A stretch of 29,449 bases of DNA, taken from positions 1 through 29,449 of the IMG/VR virus record IMGVR_UViG_3300047383_000519; one strand, given 5' to 3'. The stretch is from a virus. The position numbers and the translations under genes were made by a program. The notes beneath the pieces were generated by a model that was not told the DNA's origin, searched no databases, and saw only the letters and a program-made list of their open reading frames with translations. Positions within the stretch are counted from its first letter, which is position 1. Every line of letters begins with the position of its first letter. Positions 2,103 to 23,554 of this stretch are shown here, in pieces.

Positions 2103-3257
2103 ATGACAATTAGTTTAACAAATCTTATTGCAGACGTTGAAGCCAAGATTGCTGCTGCTAATAGTTCTACATCTACAGATGAACTATTAAAAATTATTAA
2201 AGCAGCCCGAGCAGCTAACACGATTGCAAACACTTACGATAGCTCAGGCGCAATGCCAGTTGATGCAGCGAATGTAGGTAATGTACTTATGTCTGCTAGT
2301 GATAACTTCTTGTATGTTCTCGATTCTGCTGGTGGTTCATGGTCTTCTATTACTGGATCTGGTGGCGGTGGTAGTAGTAGAACTGCTGGTCAAGGTGCTG
2401 CATTTGGATATGTAATGGGTGGGTACGATGGAGCTACAACAAATGAAATAGGAAAATTTTCACTTACAAGTGGTGCGAATGGCACTGACGCAGGTGATTT
2501 AACAGTCGCAAGATGGGGGATTGGTGGCGCATCATCTGCTACTCATGGTTATGCAGCTGGTGGCTCAGACGCAGGATATCCTATTGATAAATTTGATTTT
2601 GCAACTGATGGAAATGCGACTGACGTTGGTGATCTTACCTATTCAAATAAGCGGGGTGCCTCAACTATGTCATTAACAGATGGTTACACAATGGGAGGCG
2701 AGGATGCAAAGAATGAAATTAATAAGTTTTCATTTGCTTCGGACGGCAATGCAACTGATAGAGGTGATTTAAGCTCAGGAAGACAAGGTGCGGGCGGTTC
2801 ATCTTCTTCTATACACGGTTATACCTCAGGTGGTTCATCAGGGCCATCGCTCATAACGTCTAATAACATCGACAAATTTGCGTTTGCAACAGCAGCAAAT
2901 GCATCGGTTGTAGGTGATTTATCAGAAGCTACGCGTAGAACAGCCGGCGGTATTCAATCAACAACTGCTGGTTATACAGCTGGAGGAGAAAGCGGGCCCT
3001 CTTATATTAATAAAATACAAAAAATTTCATTTACATCTGATGGTAATGCATCAGATGTAGGAGATCTCTTAGCTACTATGGCTTTAGGTGCTGGCGTAAG
3101 CACTACAGCTGAAGGCTATATAGCGGGTGGATATCAACCGGGAGGTGGCGATTATAGTAATACAATTCAAAAGTTTCCCTTTGCTGCAGATGGTAATGCA
3201 ACTGATGTTGCTGATTTATATAATACACCGCAAAGTCATGCAACTGCTGTAGTCTAA
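2103..3257 (+). CDS. Kelch-like six-blade tail protein
   Basis: A protein of 384 residues starting 11 bases after the previous gene. The N-terminal domain (about residues 1-85) shares with its upstream paralog the AK...A.SSTS..L.KIIKAA and YDSSG.MP elements. It then reaches a Gly/Ser linker (GSGGGGSS) before the propeller. Six blades follow at spacings of roughly 46-51 residues, each with a strand such as INKFSFASDGNATDRGDL and a Y..GG turn. The domain order fits a virion-anchored stem followed by a six-bladed propeller head. It is the last gene of the first propeller group; the sulfotransferase follows after a short gap. Substrate or receptor cannot be deduced. Confidence 0.8.
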   Translation: MTISLTNLIADVEAKIAAANSSTSTDELLKIIKAARAANTIANTYDSSGAMPVDAANVGNVLMSASDNFLYVLDSAGGSWSSITGSGGGGSSRTAGQGAAFGYVMGGYDGATTNEIGKFSLTSGANGTDAGDLTVARWGIGGASSATHGYAAGGSDAGYPIDKFDFATDGNATDVGDLTYSNKRGASTMSLTDGYTMGGEDAKNEINKFSFASDGNATDRGDLSSGRQGAGGSSSSIHGYTSGGSSGPSLITSNNIDKFAFATAANASVVGDLSEATRRTAGGIQSTTAGYTAGGESGPSYINKIQKISFTSDGNASDVGDLLATMALGAGVSTTAEGYIAGGYQPGGGDYSNTIQKFPFAADGNATDVADLYNTPQSHATAVV

Positions 3258-6857: not shown

Positions 6858-7997
6858 ATGTCTATTAATAGAGATTTAGCTAAAGCACTTGCTGCCGCAG
6901 TTGGCGGTGGTACTATCGATAGTAGTGGTGCACTAGATGCTCCGCCTGGTGTTACTGCTTACGATTATGATTCTTCTGGCGGATTACTTTTAGCAAGTAC
7001 TACTGATCATGGTGATGGATCTTTGCATTGGTTAGGCGAAGTTAACGAACTTTATGTTTGGGACAGTGCAGCTACTAAATATTACTTAGTTGAAAATACT
7101 AAAACCTTAGGTTTAGGTGAAATTGCTCCGACACAAGCTCAAGGATCTACATATGGTTTTGCTACAGGTGGCTTTGCTCCAGGCGGAAACTCAAATAACA
7201 GTATTGGTAGATTTTCATTTGCAAATGAATCAACAACATCATCTATTGGTAATTTAACAGTCGGAAGACAGCTAGGAGGTAGTAACTCCTCTTCTACACA
7301 TGGTTATTATATTGGCGGTTATGTTAGACCAGGATTTGCGACTAGAAATATAATTGATAAGTTTTCCATGGCTTCAACTGGAAATGCTACTGACGTGGGT
7401 GATGATACTGGTACATATTATTATCGTAAAGGCGGTCCATCGGATACTCATGGTTACCATGCTGGAGGTAATTCGCCGGCGCAATCAGACATTATAAGAT
7501 ATTCATTTTCAACTGATGAAAATGCTTCAGACGTCGGTGATCTTGCTCAGACCACAATCCCCCGCGGTTCATTTACAAGTACAACTCATGGTTATGTTTG
7601 TGGCCATGGTATGGATAATCAAGTAGAAAAATTTGCACATTCAACTAGTGTCACTGGAACTTCTGTAGGTGATCTAGACACCTCATCATATGGTGTGGCA
7701 ACAAATGATGCAACGGCTGGTTACTTTTCAACTATGTCTGCTGGCAGTAATATCAAAAAACATTTATTTGCAAGTGATGCGTCAGCTTCAACAGCAGGAA
7801 CTATTAACTCATCAGGTGGTGGCGTATCAGAAATTGCTGTTAGTAGTTCTACAACTGCTGGATATTACATAGGTGCACAGACTAGTAATTATAAAAGTAT
7901 AGAAAAATTTGTGTGGGCAAACGAAGGCTCTACATCAGATGTAGGAGATATGGGTGGTGTTACTGGCCTTAACGAAGGCGATGGGCAACAATATTAA
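6858..7997 (+). CDS. Kelch-like six-blade tail protein, fourth paralog
   Basis: A protein of 379 residues, with AGGGG (6846-6850) before ATG. Residues 1-85 form an N-terminal domain with a YDSSGGLL element and an LYVWDSAATKYYLVEN strand. The first part differs from the upstream paralogs but ends in a similar manner. Six kelch-like blades follow (for example NIIDKFSMASTGNATDVGDD). Two middle blades are degenerate. It is separated from the other three paralogs by the sulfotransferase, the oxygenase and three unknown genes, and lies just upstream of gene 67. It is probably a second type of fibre or a virion decoration. Confidence 0.8.
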   Translation: MSINRDLAKALAAAVGGGTIDSSGALDAPPGVTAYDYDSSGGLLLASTTDHGDGSLHWLGEVNELYVWDSAATKYYLVENTKTLGLGEIAPTQAQGSTYGFATGGFAPGGNSNNSIGRFSFANESTTSSIGNLTVGRQLGGSNSSSTHGYYIGGYVRPGFATRNIIDKFSMASTGNATDVGDDTGTYYYRKGGPSDTHGYHAGGNSPAQSDIIRYSFSTDENASDVGDLAQTTIPRGSFTSTTHGYVCGHGMDNQVEKFAHSTSVTGTSVGDLDTSSYGVATNDATAGYFSTMSAGSNIKKHLFASDASASTAGTINSSGGGVSEIAVSSSTTAGYYIGAQTSNYKSIEKFVWANEGSTSDVGDMGGVTGLNEGDGQQY

Positions 7998-19291: not shown

Positions 19292-19543
19292 ATGTCTGAA
19301 AATGTAGAACAATTGCAAGAACTTGCAAATCGTAGCAGCCGTTCAATGGTTGCAGTTATTGATGCTGTCACACAACGTGGTGGCTTTAAAGGTGAAGAGC
19401 TTTCGACTATCGGTCAACTTCGCGACCAATGTATTCAAGTCATCCAGCTTTGTGAGCAAATGACTCAAGATAATGCGATGGAAGTTGATGACGAAGAAGT
19501 TAATGTTGAAGTCGCGATGGATGAGGATGCAGCTACAGAATAG
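19292..19543 (+). CDS. Small acidic protein between clamp and clamp loader
   Basis: A protein of 83 residues, not recognised. Residues 1-60 are predicted helical (VEQLQELANRSSRSMVAVID, a GGFKGEELSTIGQLRDQ segment), and residues 60-83 are a run of Asp/Glu. Start ATG is two bases after gene 45, with TTTGGAG ahead. It is not the T4 RpbA protein, which lies elsewhere and is larger. A small accessory factor of the clamp or polymerase is conceivable from position only. Confidence 0.65.
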   Translation: MSENVEQLQELANRSSRSMVAVIDAVTQRGGFKGEELSTIGQLRDQCIQVIQLCEQMTQDNAMEVDDEEVNVEVAMDEDAATE

Positions 19544-20533: not shown

Positions 20534-20906
20534 TCCGTTTGAATTTATTAACGCCATCAATACTACTAAAAAGGATATTATGGTAGATGACATCACCGAA
20601 AAGCAATATAACTCTTTTATGGTTAATCGTAGTCTATCTTACTTTAATGACACTGTACTTATGGCTAACGAAATGAATATCAACCACCATCTAGATAACC
20701 GTTTACAATTTGACTTTTTTATAAATATAGTTAGAAAGAAGAAACGGTTTTCCAAATGGATTAAACCTGAAACTTTCGGTGATGTGGAAGTAGTCAAAGC
20801 TTATTATGGTTACAGCAATGAAAAAGCTCGCCAAGCCTTGTCCCTTCTCACAAAAAAGCAACTAGACTTATTGAAGAAGAAGGTTTACAAAGGTGGAAGA
20901 AAATAA
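20517..20906 (+). CDS. 62: Clamp loader small subunit gp62
   Basis: A protein of 129 residues. NPFEFINAINTTKKDIMVDDI followed by YNSFMVNRSLSYFNDTV and FSKWIKP correspond to conserved parts of T4 gp62, which is longer (187), so this is the compact form. The start lies within the end of gene 44, and the order 44-62-regA is the T4 order. It completes the gp44/gp62 loader. Confidence 0.88.
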   Translation: MSNSLNPFEFINAINTTKKDIMVDDITEKQYNSFMVNRSLSYFNDTVLMANEMNINHHLDNRLQFDFFINIVRKKKRFSKWIKPETFGDVEVVKAYYGYSNEKARQALSLLTKKQLDLLKKKVYKGGRK

Positions 20907-20931
20907 TTTAATTGAGTGGATTCCAGGCGAT

Positions 20932-21306
20932 ATGCTGGAAGTAACTCTAAACGAGCCAGATGATTTCCTTAAAATTAAAGAAACTCTAACTCGCATCGGT
21001 GTAGCGTCAAGAAAAGACAACAAGCTATATCAGTCGTGTCATATCTTGCATAAACAAGGTAGATATTTTATTGTGCATTTTAAGGAATTGTTTTTACTTG
21101 ATGGTAAAAAGTCTAACTTAGAAGAAAATGATCTTGCACGCAGAAATACAATTGCAACTCTTATGAGTGATTGGGGTTTACTTTCAATTGTGAATAAAGA
21201 AAGTACACATCCATTGGCACCACTTAGACAGATTAAGATCATTCCTTACAAAGAAAAATCTAATTGGGAACTTTGTCCTAAATATAACATTGGTAATAAA
21301 TCGTGA
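20932..21306 (+). CDS. regA: Translational repressor RegA
   Basis: A protein of 124 residues from ATG 20932 (MLEVTLNEPDDFLK), the start that aligns with T4 RegA, and CCAGGCGAT gives a ribosome site. An in-frame GTG at 20893, inside gene 62, would add 13 residues. The block DDFLKIKETLTRIGVASRKDNKLYQSCHIL is nearly T4-identical, followed by GRYFIVHFKE and the PKYNIGNKS ending. RegA binds ribosome sites of early phage messages and limits their translation, including its own. It ends the 44-62-regA run; the stop overlaps a small membrane gene (GTGA). Confidence 0.95.
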   Translation: MLEVTLNEPDDFLKIKETLTRIGVASRKDNKLYQSCHILHKQGRYFIVHFKELFLLDGKKSNLEENDLARRNTIATLMSDWGLLSIVNKESTHPLAPLRQIKIIPYKEKSNWELCPKYNIGNKS

Positions 21307-21945: not shown

Positions 21946-21977
21946 TGTACTTTTAAAAAAAAAGTACTATATATAAT
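21946..21977 (+). promoter_or_regulatory. Candidate TGTAC-type promoter for hsp20
   Basis: TGTACT at 21946-21951 and TATAAT at 21972-21977 followed by ATA. The spacer is 20 bp, longer than in the other copies, and contains a GTACTTTT/AAAAGTAC inverted repeat (21947-21967). Predicted start near 21984 would place the transcript at the base of the hsp20 leader hairpins. Confidence 0.55.
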
Positions 21978-21981
21978 ATAG

Positions 21982-22034
21982 GATGCCGCATTGTGCGGGT
22001 CCATCTACAACCTTGCTTATTGGAGGTCAATATG
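21982..22034 (+). promoter_or_regulatory. ROSE-like RNA thermometer in hsp20 leader
   Basis: Two hairpins can be drawn in the 50-base leader. The first pairs GATGCCGCA with TGCGG and CATC (21982-22005), loop TTG. The second pairs ACCTT (22010-22014) with GGAGGT (22022-22027) through CCTTGCTTATTGGAGG, so the GGAGG ribosome site is buried, with a G15-G22 type mismatch and C/U, U/U oppositions in the middle. TTGCT facing TTGGAGG is the hallmark U(U/C)GCU motif of ROSE thermometers found before small heat-shock genes in rhizobia and in enterobacterial ibpA. Predicted action is that heating melts the second hairpin and frees the site for translation. Confidence 0.72.
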
Positions 22035-22511
22035 ACTAATAACACACTTACTTTCCCGCGTGGTGCATTTGTAGGATTCGATCATATTTTTAATGATCTG
22101 GAGCGTATGGCTCAGTCCCACAAGAAAGACCATTATCCACCACATAACGTCGTACATTTAGCAGACGATCGATATTTGATTGAACTAGCAGTTGTTGGTT
22201 TCAAAGAATCTGATATTGATATTACTATGCATGATGGTATTCTTACTGTAAAAGGTAATCGCGATCAAAGACGTAATCAAGAAATGTATGTACATAAGGG
22301 AATCAGCGGTCGTAAATTCGAGAGATCATTTAGACTCTCTGAATTTGTAGAAGTTAAAGGAGCAGATCTTCAGGACGGTCTATTAGCAATTCGCCTAGAG
22401 CGAGTTATCCCTGATGAAAAGCGTCCCCGTAAAATCTTAATCACAAACGGGGTAGAAAACAATGACAACCTTAACACTACAAAGCCTGAGCTTCTCAACG
22501 AAGATTCTTGA
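22032..22511 (+). CDS. hsp20: Small heat-shock protein Hsp20 (IbpA-type)
   Basis: A protein of 159 residues from ATG 22032, five bases after GGAGG. An alpha-crystallin domain spans about residues 35-140: YPPHNVVHLADDRYLIELAV, GFKESDIDITMHDGILTVKG, YVHKGISGRKFERSFRLSEF, then GADLQDGLLAIRLERVIPDE and KPRKI-like RPRKI. It resembles proteobacterial IbpA/HspA class proteins. It should hold unfolding proteins during infection or virion assembly. Hsp20 genes are widespread in marine T4-like phages. Regulation looks double: a candidate TGTAC promoter and a ROSE-like leader. The last 50 bases are shared with the next gene. Confidence 0.94.
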   Translation: MTNNTLTFPRGAFVGFDHIFNDLERMAQSHKKDHYPPHNVVHLADDRYLIELAVVGFKESDIDITMHDGILTVKGNRDQRRNQEMYVHKGISGRKFERSFRLSEFVEVKGADLQDGLLAIRLERVIPDEKRPRKILITNGVENNDNLNTTKPELLNEDS

Positions 22512-22710: not shown

Positions 22711-22853
22711 TTAACTGGATTAGAGATCTATTTACTAGAACAAACATGTCCTATCAACAAAAACAAATTGAAAAGTATTTGGCTAACTCATCTGACCTAG
22801 TCGACTTAGAGCGGCGGCAAAGAGAACTTACACACGGAAGGTTTAAGCTGTAA
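22707..22853 (+). CDS. 48-residue protein resembling DUF3563 small proteins
   Basis: A short frame from ATG 22707 (overlapping the previous stop, ATGA) to TAA 22851-22853 (overlapping the pseudoazurin ATG, TAATG). The C-terminal half YLANSSDLVDLERRQRELTH has the pattern of the small DUF3563-type proteins of proteobacteria (YLA.S.DL.DLERR.REL). The function of that group is unknown. Coupling on both sides supports expression. Confidence 0.6.
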   Translation: MINWIRDLFTRTNMSYQQKQIEKYLANSSDLVDLERRQRELTHGRFKL

Positions 22854-23281
22854 TGAAAACACTAGCTTTTTATCTAACAGCATTTGCTGTTATGTTTACT
22901 GTAGGGGTTGCTAATGCAACTACTATTGAAATGCTTAACAAAGATGCTGATGGTAACAAGATGGTCTATAGCGAAGAGATTGCTCGTGTTTCTGTAGGCG
23001 ATACAGTTACGTGGGTACCCGCTTCGAAAGGTCACAATGTAGAAATGATTGCAGGACCTGATGGAGCAGCTCTTCCAAAGAAGTCTAAGAATAGTAAAGA
23101 AGTTTCTATGACTTTTGAAGTACCTGGTATTTACTATTATTGGTGTACACCGCACAAAGGCATGGGCATGATTGGCCTTGTTGTAGTCGGTGATGATGTG
23201 TCTAATAAAGATACAATTGCTAAAGCTAAAGCAATGGGTAAATCAAAAAAGAAACTAAAGGCTCTCTTAGGCCAATTGTGA
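22853..23281 (+). CDS. Pseudoazurin (type I blue copper protein)
   Basis: A protein of 142 residues with a signal peptide (about 1-22, hydrophobic core LAFYLTAFAVMFTVGV, cut after ANA) and a cupredoxin domain. The four copper ligands are present with pseudoazurin spacing: H61 (KGHNVE), C98, H101 (WCTPHKGMGM) and M106. The C-terminal two-helix tail (about 115-142, AKAKAMGKSKKKLKALLGQL) is also typical of pseudoazurin rather than plastocyanin. It should carry electrons in the periplasm; in bacteria pseudoazurin feeds nitrite and nitrous oxide reductases and peroxidases. In a phage it is a probable auxiliary metabolic gene. It is translationally coupled to the upstream small gene. Confidence 0.92.
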   Translation: MKTLAFYLTAFAVMFTVGVANATTIEMLNKDADGNKMVYSEEIARVSVGDTVTWVPASKGHNVEMIAGPDGAALPKKSKNSKEVSMTFEVPGIYYYWCTPHKGMGMIGLVVVGDDVSNKDTIAKAKAMGKSKKKLKALLGQL

Positions 23282-23282
23282 A

Positions 23283-23324
23283 ATGTGGCCATACGCTAAA
23301 GAAGAAAATGATTTTCTAGGATAA
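23283..23324 (+). CDS. Possible 13-residue peptide
   Basis: A frame MWPYAKEENDFLG starting one base after the pseudoazurin stop and ending before the terminator hairpin. It is too short to judge by composition. The Trp/Tyr-rich start and acidic middle look protein-like and the position is operonic, but no clear ribosome site is seen. Confidence 0.25.
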   Translation: MWPYAKEENDFLG

Positions 23325-23330
23325 ATATTA

Positions 23331-23360
23331 AAAGGAGCAAATCTCTTGCTCCTTTTTCCT
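23331..23360 (+). terminator. Intrinsic terminator after pseudoazurin
   Basis: AAAGGAGCAA (23331-23340) pairs perfectly with TTGCTCCTTT (23346-23355) around a five-base loop ATCTC, followed by a T-rich run (TTCCTTT). It ends the hsp20-pseudoazurin transcript. Confidence 0.88.
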
Positions 23361-23374
23361 TTAGGAGAAAAATA

Positions 23375-23554
23375 ATGGTAAAACCTAATGAGAAATTTAA
23401 TTTAGATATAAAAGATGTACATCTAATTGAAACGTCTTTAAGGTATTTGCACAGTTTAGATCCAGAAAAAGCGAAAGAAATACAACAACTATTAGGTAAA
23501 ATACATAATCAAAAGAATTGGTATAGACCTAAAAATAACTATGTAAGTGGATAG
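23375..23554 (+). CDS. 59-residue small protein before lysozyme
   Basis: A frame from ATG 23375, with TTAGGAG at 23361-23367, to TAG 23552-23554, five bases before the lysozyme start. The 59 residues are helical and basic (DVHLIETSLRYLHSLDPEKA, then LGKIHNQKNWYRP). The LxxLLGKIHNQK.WYRP ending is a pattern I recall from small proteins of marine T4-like phages. Function is unknown. It lies immediately after a terminator without an obvious promoter; a GATAAATA sequence at 23320 differs by one base from the late box. Confidence 0.65.
   Translation: MVKPNEKFNLDIKDVHLIETSLRYLHSLDPEKAKEIQQLLGKIHNQKNWYRPKNNYVSG

Follow-up and report, generated by a model that had tools for sequence, protein, structure and literature searches.

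The window analyzed here, the whole 29,449-base viral record, represents part of the genome of a T4-like marine phage, with a T4-like gene order of gp23 (major head protein), a UvsW-type helicase, gp46/47, gp45, gp44, gp62, RegA and gp43. Its head protein is nearest to that of C48C1 (68.8%), followed by those of the Methylophilales phage Melnitz and the pelagiphages HTVC008M and Mosig (~61%) and of cyanophages (~60%). A gene for 159 amino acids on the forward strand (22032-22511), flanked by an ORF of no known function and gp43 and downstream of gp62-regA, had been read as hsp20 from its sequence, and profile matches agree (PF00011, E=3.8e-17; PHROG 432, E=6.8e-37). This is the gene that would be controlled in the model proposed below. 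The translational repressor gene regA lies at 20893-21306 on the same strand (PF01818, E=4.2e-44). The order gp62-regA-hsp20 is also found in S-PM2 and S-MbCM7, and hsp20 occupies the same place in the window as in S-PM2 and other cyanophages. Elsewhere in the window, positions 22853-23281 encode a copper protein of the plastocyanin/azurin family (PF00127, E=1.7e-16) that probably has a signal peptide and is possibly a phage-borne electron carrier, and four ORFs in the first 8 kb (133-933, 946-2091, 2103-3257 and 6858-7997) have the repeated motif KFPFASDGxATDVGDL..GY..GG in common, two of them matching PHROG 19111 (function not known).

Read from 5' to 3', the region before hsp20 consists of the box TATATATAATA (21968-21978), hairpin I, a spacer, hairpin II, UCAA and the AUG at 22032. 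The box resembles a T4 late promoter and sits just 5' of hairpin I, where nearly all related leaders have a TATA-type box; the exact TATAAATA recurs in the relatives L008, L012, Melnitz and others, and the frequency of TATAWATA in the window alone is not above chance. Hairpin I, GGATGCCGCATTGTGCGGGTCC at 21981-22002 (as RNA GGAUGCCGCA-UUG-UGCGGGUCC), pairs GGAU-G-CCGCA with UGCGGGUCC and contains a U.G wobble (21984-21999) and a bulged G (21985), so that the GC-rich upstream hairpin of the original prediction does exist. Hairpin II (22010-22027), the putative sensory hairpin, sets ACCUU-G-C against GGAGGU around the loop UUAUU; it contains CCTTGCTTATTGGAGG (22011-22026), with the ATG 5 nt downstream. 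Within it, an anti-Shine-Dalgarno arm UUGCU (22013-22017), which has the form of the ROSE motif U(U/C)GCU, is able to pair with the Shine-Dalgarno sequence GGAGG (22022-22026), just as had been claimed. The register obtained by comparison is A22010-U22027, C22011-G22026, C22012-G22025, U22013-A22024, U22014.G22023 and C22016-G22022, with G22015 unpaired. A G-G opposition and U/C mismatches had been proposed for this helix; the former survives as one G bulge (or G-G opposition), whereas the mismatches are absent from the supported register, which has one U.G wobble. Note here that start-codon calls can be a pitfall at such loci: the longest hsp20 ORF in the window starts at a GTG (21993) inside hairpin I, and the GenBank start of hsp20 in S-SRM01 (L292:481) is the ATG of GGATGCC within hairpin I, which hides the leader.

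Folding of the single sequence is by itself unremarkable (z=-1.2); the evidence for the element is comparative. A search with the Hsp20 protein returned 55 IMG/VR loci, and every one containing the leader shows two hairpins by eye. Pairing was tested on a plain MAFFT alignment of 31 distinct leaders, with 15 pairs named from the window sequence. Standard pairs fill 97.0% of cells (97.2% in hairpin I, 96.7% in hairpin II) and seven of the 15 pairs change on both sides, six of them among the eight pairs of hairpin I, which bears out the expectation that the TTGCT pairing would be conserved and covary in related phages. In hairpin II, C-G becomes U-A at the lower pair in 8 of the 31 sequences; in hairpin I, the U.G pair is retained in 30 of 31 while neighboring pairs change. 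Cells changed on both sides number 45, compared with 11.9 in shuffles, and the covariation score is 0.302, compared with 0.126 for shuffled data and at most 0.10 with slid partners; kinship among sequences inflates such counts, yet the slid-partner controls retain this kinship and stay lower. RNAalifold, run with no structure supplied, recovers both hairpins.

The core motif was followed in a larger set, in which 149 of 152 distinct phage leaders fit U-Y-N-CU-loop-GGA and N is G in 147. The pair flanking this core is complementary in 80.5% of the 149 leaders (C-G 59, U-A 51, A-U 9, U-G 1), compared with 52% in shuffles and a maximum of 60% in 2000 of them; the next pair outward gave no covariation, nor did the outermost pair of hairpin II (A22010-U22027). 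Two relatives have UUACU instead of U(U/C)GCU. In a sub-lineage (L035, L036, L038, L041 and L050), CCTTACTT replaces CCTTGCTT, turning the signature bulged G into A with pairing retained, and nature thus offers in these loci a way to examine what the G does. The pattern [CT]T[TC]GCT N4-11 GGA[GC] followed by a start codon is present at the hsp20 leader in 211 of 220 phage loci, which is not an independent rate because most loci were chosen by a model containing the motif; elsewhere in these loci it occurs 10 times in 1.34 Mb (both strands).

From the 31-leader alignment a covariance model (R1) was built, which places the element directly before hsp20 in ~200 viral loci. This holds for 51 of 52 close relatives with the leader inside the contig, and, among more distant IMG/VR loci, the element was found in 73 of 80 of the Melnitz type and 76 of 80 of the Mosig type, always at the hsp20 start. 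Among isolates, which are independent of the alignment, R1 scores reach 49.8 bits in C48C1, 45.3 in Melnitz, 43.9 in S-RIM44, 43.6 in S-SM1, 37.4 in S-RIM2, 37.0 in P-SSM5, 33.2 in S-PM2, 28.9 in Mosig, 28.6 in P-SSM4, 27.2 in both ACG-2014f and P-TIM40, 27.0 in Callisto, S-H34 and S-SRM01, and 21.9 in HTVC115P, with a partial match only (13.0 bits) in ACG-2014h. The two-hairpin layout precedes hsp20 in all 18 isolate records examined, with R1 at E<0.001 in 14 and at E=0.015 in HTVC115P; R1 missed S-CAM4 and MED4-213, in which the motif is visible by eye, and the core of Callisto is UUGCG, not UUGCU. Isolates with this anatomy infect Synechococcus, Prochlorococcus, Pelagibacter and Methylophilales. 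A sequence-only model of the same alignment scored ~18-20 bits lower in the isolates compared (24.1 vs 43.9 bits in S-RIM44, 17.2 vs 37.4 in S-RIM2, 27.8 vs 45.3 in Melnitz) or lost the match, which indicates that the pairing itself is conserved outside the training set. When a pattern for hairpin I alone was searched, 31 of 35 full-length model matches preceded Hsp20 ORFs and four preceded another gene. The Hsp20 of S-PM2, used as an IMG/VR query, returned two loci only.

Comparison with Rfam gave a mixed outcome. A scan of the whole window at gathering threshold returned no match. At a loose threshold, ROSE_3 (RF02523) ranked top of 4227 models at the leader with an alignment spanning the full model, in which the block GGAUGCCG...CGGGUCC matches almost letter for letter, and the score of 22.4 bits is under the gathering score of 43 (E=0.026 for 601 bases and all families; E=3.1e-4 for ROSE_3 alone and the whole record). 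The families to which the original prediction had looked, ROSE (RF00435) and ROSE_2 (RF01832), matched nowhere in the window up to E=10, nor did the other phage leaders tested match either within the E-value limits used. ROSE_3 is the top match in isolates as well (Melnitz 34.1 bits, MED4-213 29.2, C48C1 26.8), and Melnitz is the best of the genuine phage leaders tested, none of which reaches an Rfam threshold. Because the ROSE_3 gathering score is not reached, we file the leader as a new variant of the ROSE-like class and not as a member of RF02523. The phage leaders illustrate that Rfam thresholds miss putative RNA thermometers of this kind. The records "Campylobacter phage A11a" and "Pseudomonas phage Y7", which score as true ROSE_2 and ROSE_3, were dropped as evidence, being unverified and unannotated and looking like bacterial DNA. 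In the unverified "phage" records MG065691.1 (L064) and OQ572409.1 (L063), hsp20 leaders score full ROSE_2 (100 bits) and ROSE_3 (69 bits), and these are probably bacterial DNA inside phage records.

Bacterial relatives have leaders of the same build. Pelagibacteraceae (e.g. HIMB114, L261) and Burkholderiales MAGs carry a two-hairpin hsp20 leader with CUUGCUU..AAGGAG; a search of six host genomes with the phage model gave a genome-wide match in one only, since this model is too phage-specific. A tree of 73 Hsp20 proteins interleaves phage and bacterial rows, with six label changes, four of them forced by well supported branches; among the rows labeled "bacterial", some may stem from phage contigs binned into MAGs. 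The phage proteins do not form a single clade in this tree: 10 phage rows, that of the window included, make up a well supported clade (100/97), cyanophages group separately, and Mosig-type phages adjoin SAR11. This fits a history in which leader and hsp20 moved together between phages and hosts, a movement whose number and dates the tree does not give.

The leader has three features of the ROSE-like class (PMC3669281, PMC4166951), whose members contain two to four hairpins: it lies 5' of a small heat shock gene, its U(U/C)GCU is imperfectly paired with the Shine-Dalgarno sequence, and of its two hairpins the 5' one is stable. We consider it very probable that a homologous ROSE-like leader, pairing with the ribosome site, precedes hsp20. 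The original assignment to ROSE stands in this respect, upheld by covariation and spread, and needs correction as to type, which is the short two-hairpin one of Pseudomonas ibpA and ROSE_3, not the long rhizobial one. The nearest counterpart is the short ROSE-like thermometer of Pseudomonas ibpA (PMC3669281; ROSE_3 being the nearest Rfam model), which likewise places two hairpins before a small heat shock gene. Its GC-rich hairpin I has the block GAU-G-CCG..CGGGUC identical in letters, including wobble and bulge, and its hairpin II sets U(U/C)GCU with an unpaired G against the ribosome site. Unlike it, the present element is phage-borne, has a T4-late-type box in place of a sigma-32 promoter, and differs in loop and spacer. 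Rhizobial ROSE and enterobacterial ROSE_2 (ibpA/ibpB) elements share with it the U(U/C)GCU anti-Shine-Dalgarno motif, the labile 3' hairpin and the small heat shock gene, but rhizobial elements have three to four hairpins (PMC3669281) as against two. ROSE elements have been described in alpha- and gammaproteobacteria, with a ROSE-like one in a small heat shock gene of Anabaena (PMC4166951). The latter and the leader of Synechocystis hsp17 (PMC4166951) are cyanobacterial thermometers on the same type of gene as in cyanophages; Synechocystis hsp17, however, has a single short hairpin, whereas in cyanophages the leader has two hairpins and UCGCU and is similar to proteobacterial leaders.

RNA thermometers have also been reported in phage genomes, namely the fourU element of SP-beta prophage blyA (PMC10586365) and lambda cIII (PMC4166951), but these belong to other structural classes, act on other genes (lysis, lysogeny decision) and come from single phages. 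According to the blyA paper of 2023, a single phage RNA thermometer was on record until then (PMC10586365). The belief that no ROSE element had been described in a phage agrees with our literature search, which turned up none; most subscription journals lay outside the search, and an earlier mention is possible. The cyanophage-genome and Melnitz papers mention hsp20 and no thermometer, and the word thermometer is absent from a study of the Hsp20 of phage S-ShM2.

We regard it as probable that hsp20 of the window is preceded by a ROSE-like RNA thermometer of the short two-hairpin kind, placed behind a T4-late-type promoter, thermosensing included. The reading as a thermometer follows from homology with experimentally tested ROSE elements (PMC3669281), and a temperature response of the phage leader is inferred by that analogy. 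In Pseudomonas ibpA, the ribosome site is freed as hairpin II melts over the range of 25 to 42 C; hairpin I remains closed, and hairpin II is sufficient by itself (PMC3669281). In the model proposed here, transcription would start from the T4-late-type box, giving an mRNA that begins at or near hairpin I. Hairpin I would act as a stable clamp at the 5' end, and in hairpin II GGAGG would be weakly paired to the UUGCU arm, in a helix that the bulged G and the U.G wobble keep labile. In the cold this helix would hinder ribosome binding; upon warming, hairpin II would open while hairpin I stays closed, and more Hsp20 would be made.

Energy calculations agree with a stable 5' hairpin (hairpin I, -13.7 kcal/mol at 20 C and -7.3 at 50 C). 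Forced-structure energies of hairpin II reach dG=0 near 52 C in the window. On this rough scale, whose absolute values are not real melting points and whose energy model lacks the non-canonical pairs of ROSE, the window clade has a median of 56 C, with 57 for cyanophages, 49 for the Melnitz type, 44 for the Mosig type and 41 for SAR11 hosts, and single-sequence controls give 62 C for Pseudomonas and 68 C for an E. coli-like leader. Hairpin II of the window is thus predicted to be weaker than that of the one Pseudomonas leader compared. The modeled order across leaders would suit colder habitats, which we take as a hint only. The accessibility of the Shine-Dalgarno sequence in the window, calculated with nearest-neighbor energies, is 0.25 at 10 C and 0.33 at 37 C; an E. 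coli-like ROSE_2 control likewise showed no clear opening, and such calculations are uninformative for that reason. Nor is the accessibility at hsp20 unusual among window genes, several others being equally occluded in silico.

The ordinary folding energy of the single sequence and the equally occluded ribosome sites of other window genes would agree with a pyrimidine-rich stretch being complementary to the ribosome site by chance, but covariation and the spread across phages refute this, leaving it a negligible probability. In another reading, a translational repressor of the phage, such as RegA, uses the leader as its operator; regA lies two genes upstream in the window and adjoins hsp20 in many cyanophages. 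T4 RegA, by contrast, works close to the start codon of early messages and not by way of a ROSE-type two-hairpin leader. Moreover, the same leader precedes bacterial hsp20 in SAR11 and Burkholderiales, and is present in phages whose hsp20 does not adjoin regA (Mosig, Melnitz, P-SSM4), and we hold this reading to be very improbable. The leader could instead be a relic inherited along with the gene from bacteria, or simply a translation attenuator and mRNA stabilizer, setting a low, temperature-independent level of Hsp20. The mixture of phage and bacterial Hsp20 in the tree, with at least four label changes forced, would agree with this, as would the same leader type in bacterial relatives, the ability of a 5' hairpin to stabilize mRNA, and energy calculations without strong thermosensing. 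However, compensatory changes in both hairpins and a bulged G retained by 147 of the 149 leaders speak for a labile helix that is under selection at present, whereas a constant level alone would easily be reached by a stronger or weaker helix; a relic or attenuator thus appears unlikely to us.

A tentative alternative, to which we give more weight than to the preceding ones while still doubting it, is that the leader is a feedback site, where Hsp20 would attach to the ROSE-type leader of its own mRNA and keep translation down until misfolded protein titrates it away. What the phage senses would then be the aggregation of proteins and not temperature itself, a mechanism that may coexist with thermosensing. 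There is a precedent in E. coli, where IbpA represses its own mRNA via a ROSE-bearing leader. In addition, hairpin I keeps a U.G pair and a bulged purine, beyond what a plain clamp needs. A pure thermometer, however, predicts identical conservation, and in Pseudomonas hairpin II alone sufficed for thermoregulation (PMC3669281).

Our searches also brought up a second leader in at least 120 IMG/VR contigs (e.g. L316:2902-2974(-), L323:5411-5484(-), L346:5436-5507(+) and L371:4941-5012(+)). It has the same covarying hairpin I, with U.G pair and bulged G, followed by a constant TAGTCTA-CTTTGCAAAGGAGA, a part that the search pattern required. It precedes a small ORF of no known function that adjoins gp45 and is similar to the window ORF at 19292-19543. 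In 18 sequences hairpin I covaries, and both partners have changed in 12 of the 21 pairs predicted for the whole leader. Lacking the ROSE core, this leader could be another switch that hides the Shine-Dalgarno sequence.

The gene hsp20 is a core gene of T4-like cyanophages (PMC3037559), and its role in infection has only been guessed at. If the leader is a thermometer, the translation of a gene belonging to the core of very common ocean phages may follow temperature; the phage, and not the host alone, would adjust infection to water temperature, and warming oceans would be linked directly to virus production. RNA thermometers, of which two phage cases have been described, would become a regular component of phages that are very common. 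A wider proposal, which we consider speculative and rather doubtful, is that marine T4-like phages run their own temperature-gated translation program, with a ROSE-like leader wired to a late promoter in a core gene, helix strength varying by lineage with habitat or host, and a related leader (the same hairpin I with another stem hiding the Shine-Dalgarno sequence) controlling a second gene beside the sliding clamp.

A second R1 match in the window (23322-23380, 17.9 bits) is not ROSE, as it has no UUGCU; it consists of a late-promoter-like box, a strong stem-loop and a Shine-Dalgarno sequence before a small ORF. This arrangement, in which a TAAATA box overlaps the strong stem-loop (AAAAGGAGC..GCTCCTTTT) and the Shine-Dalgarno sequence and small ORF follow, is seen at 23290-23380 of the window and also at L039:4284-4340, L034:3834-3891 and L051:1045-1101.
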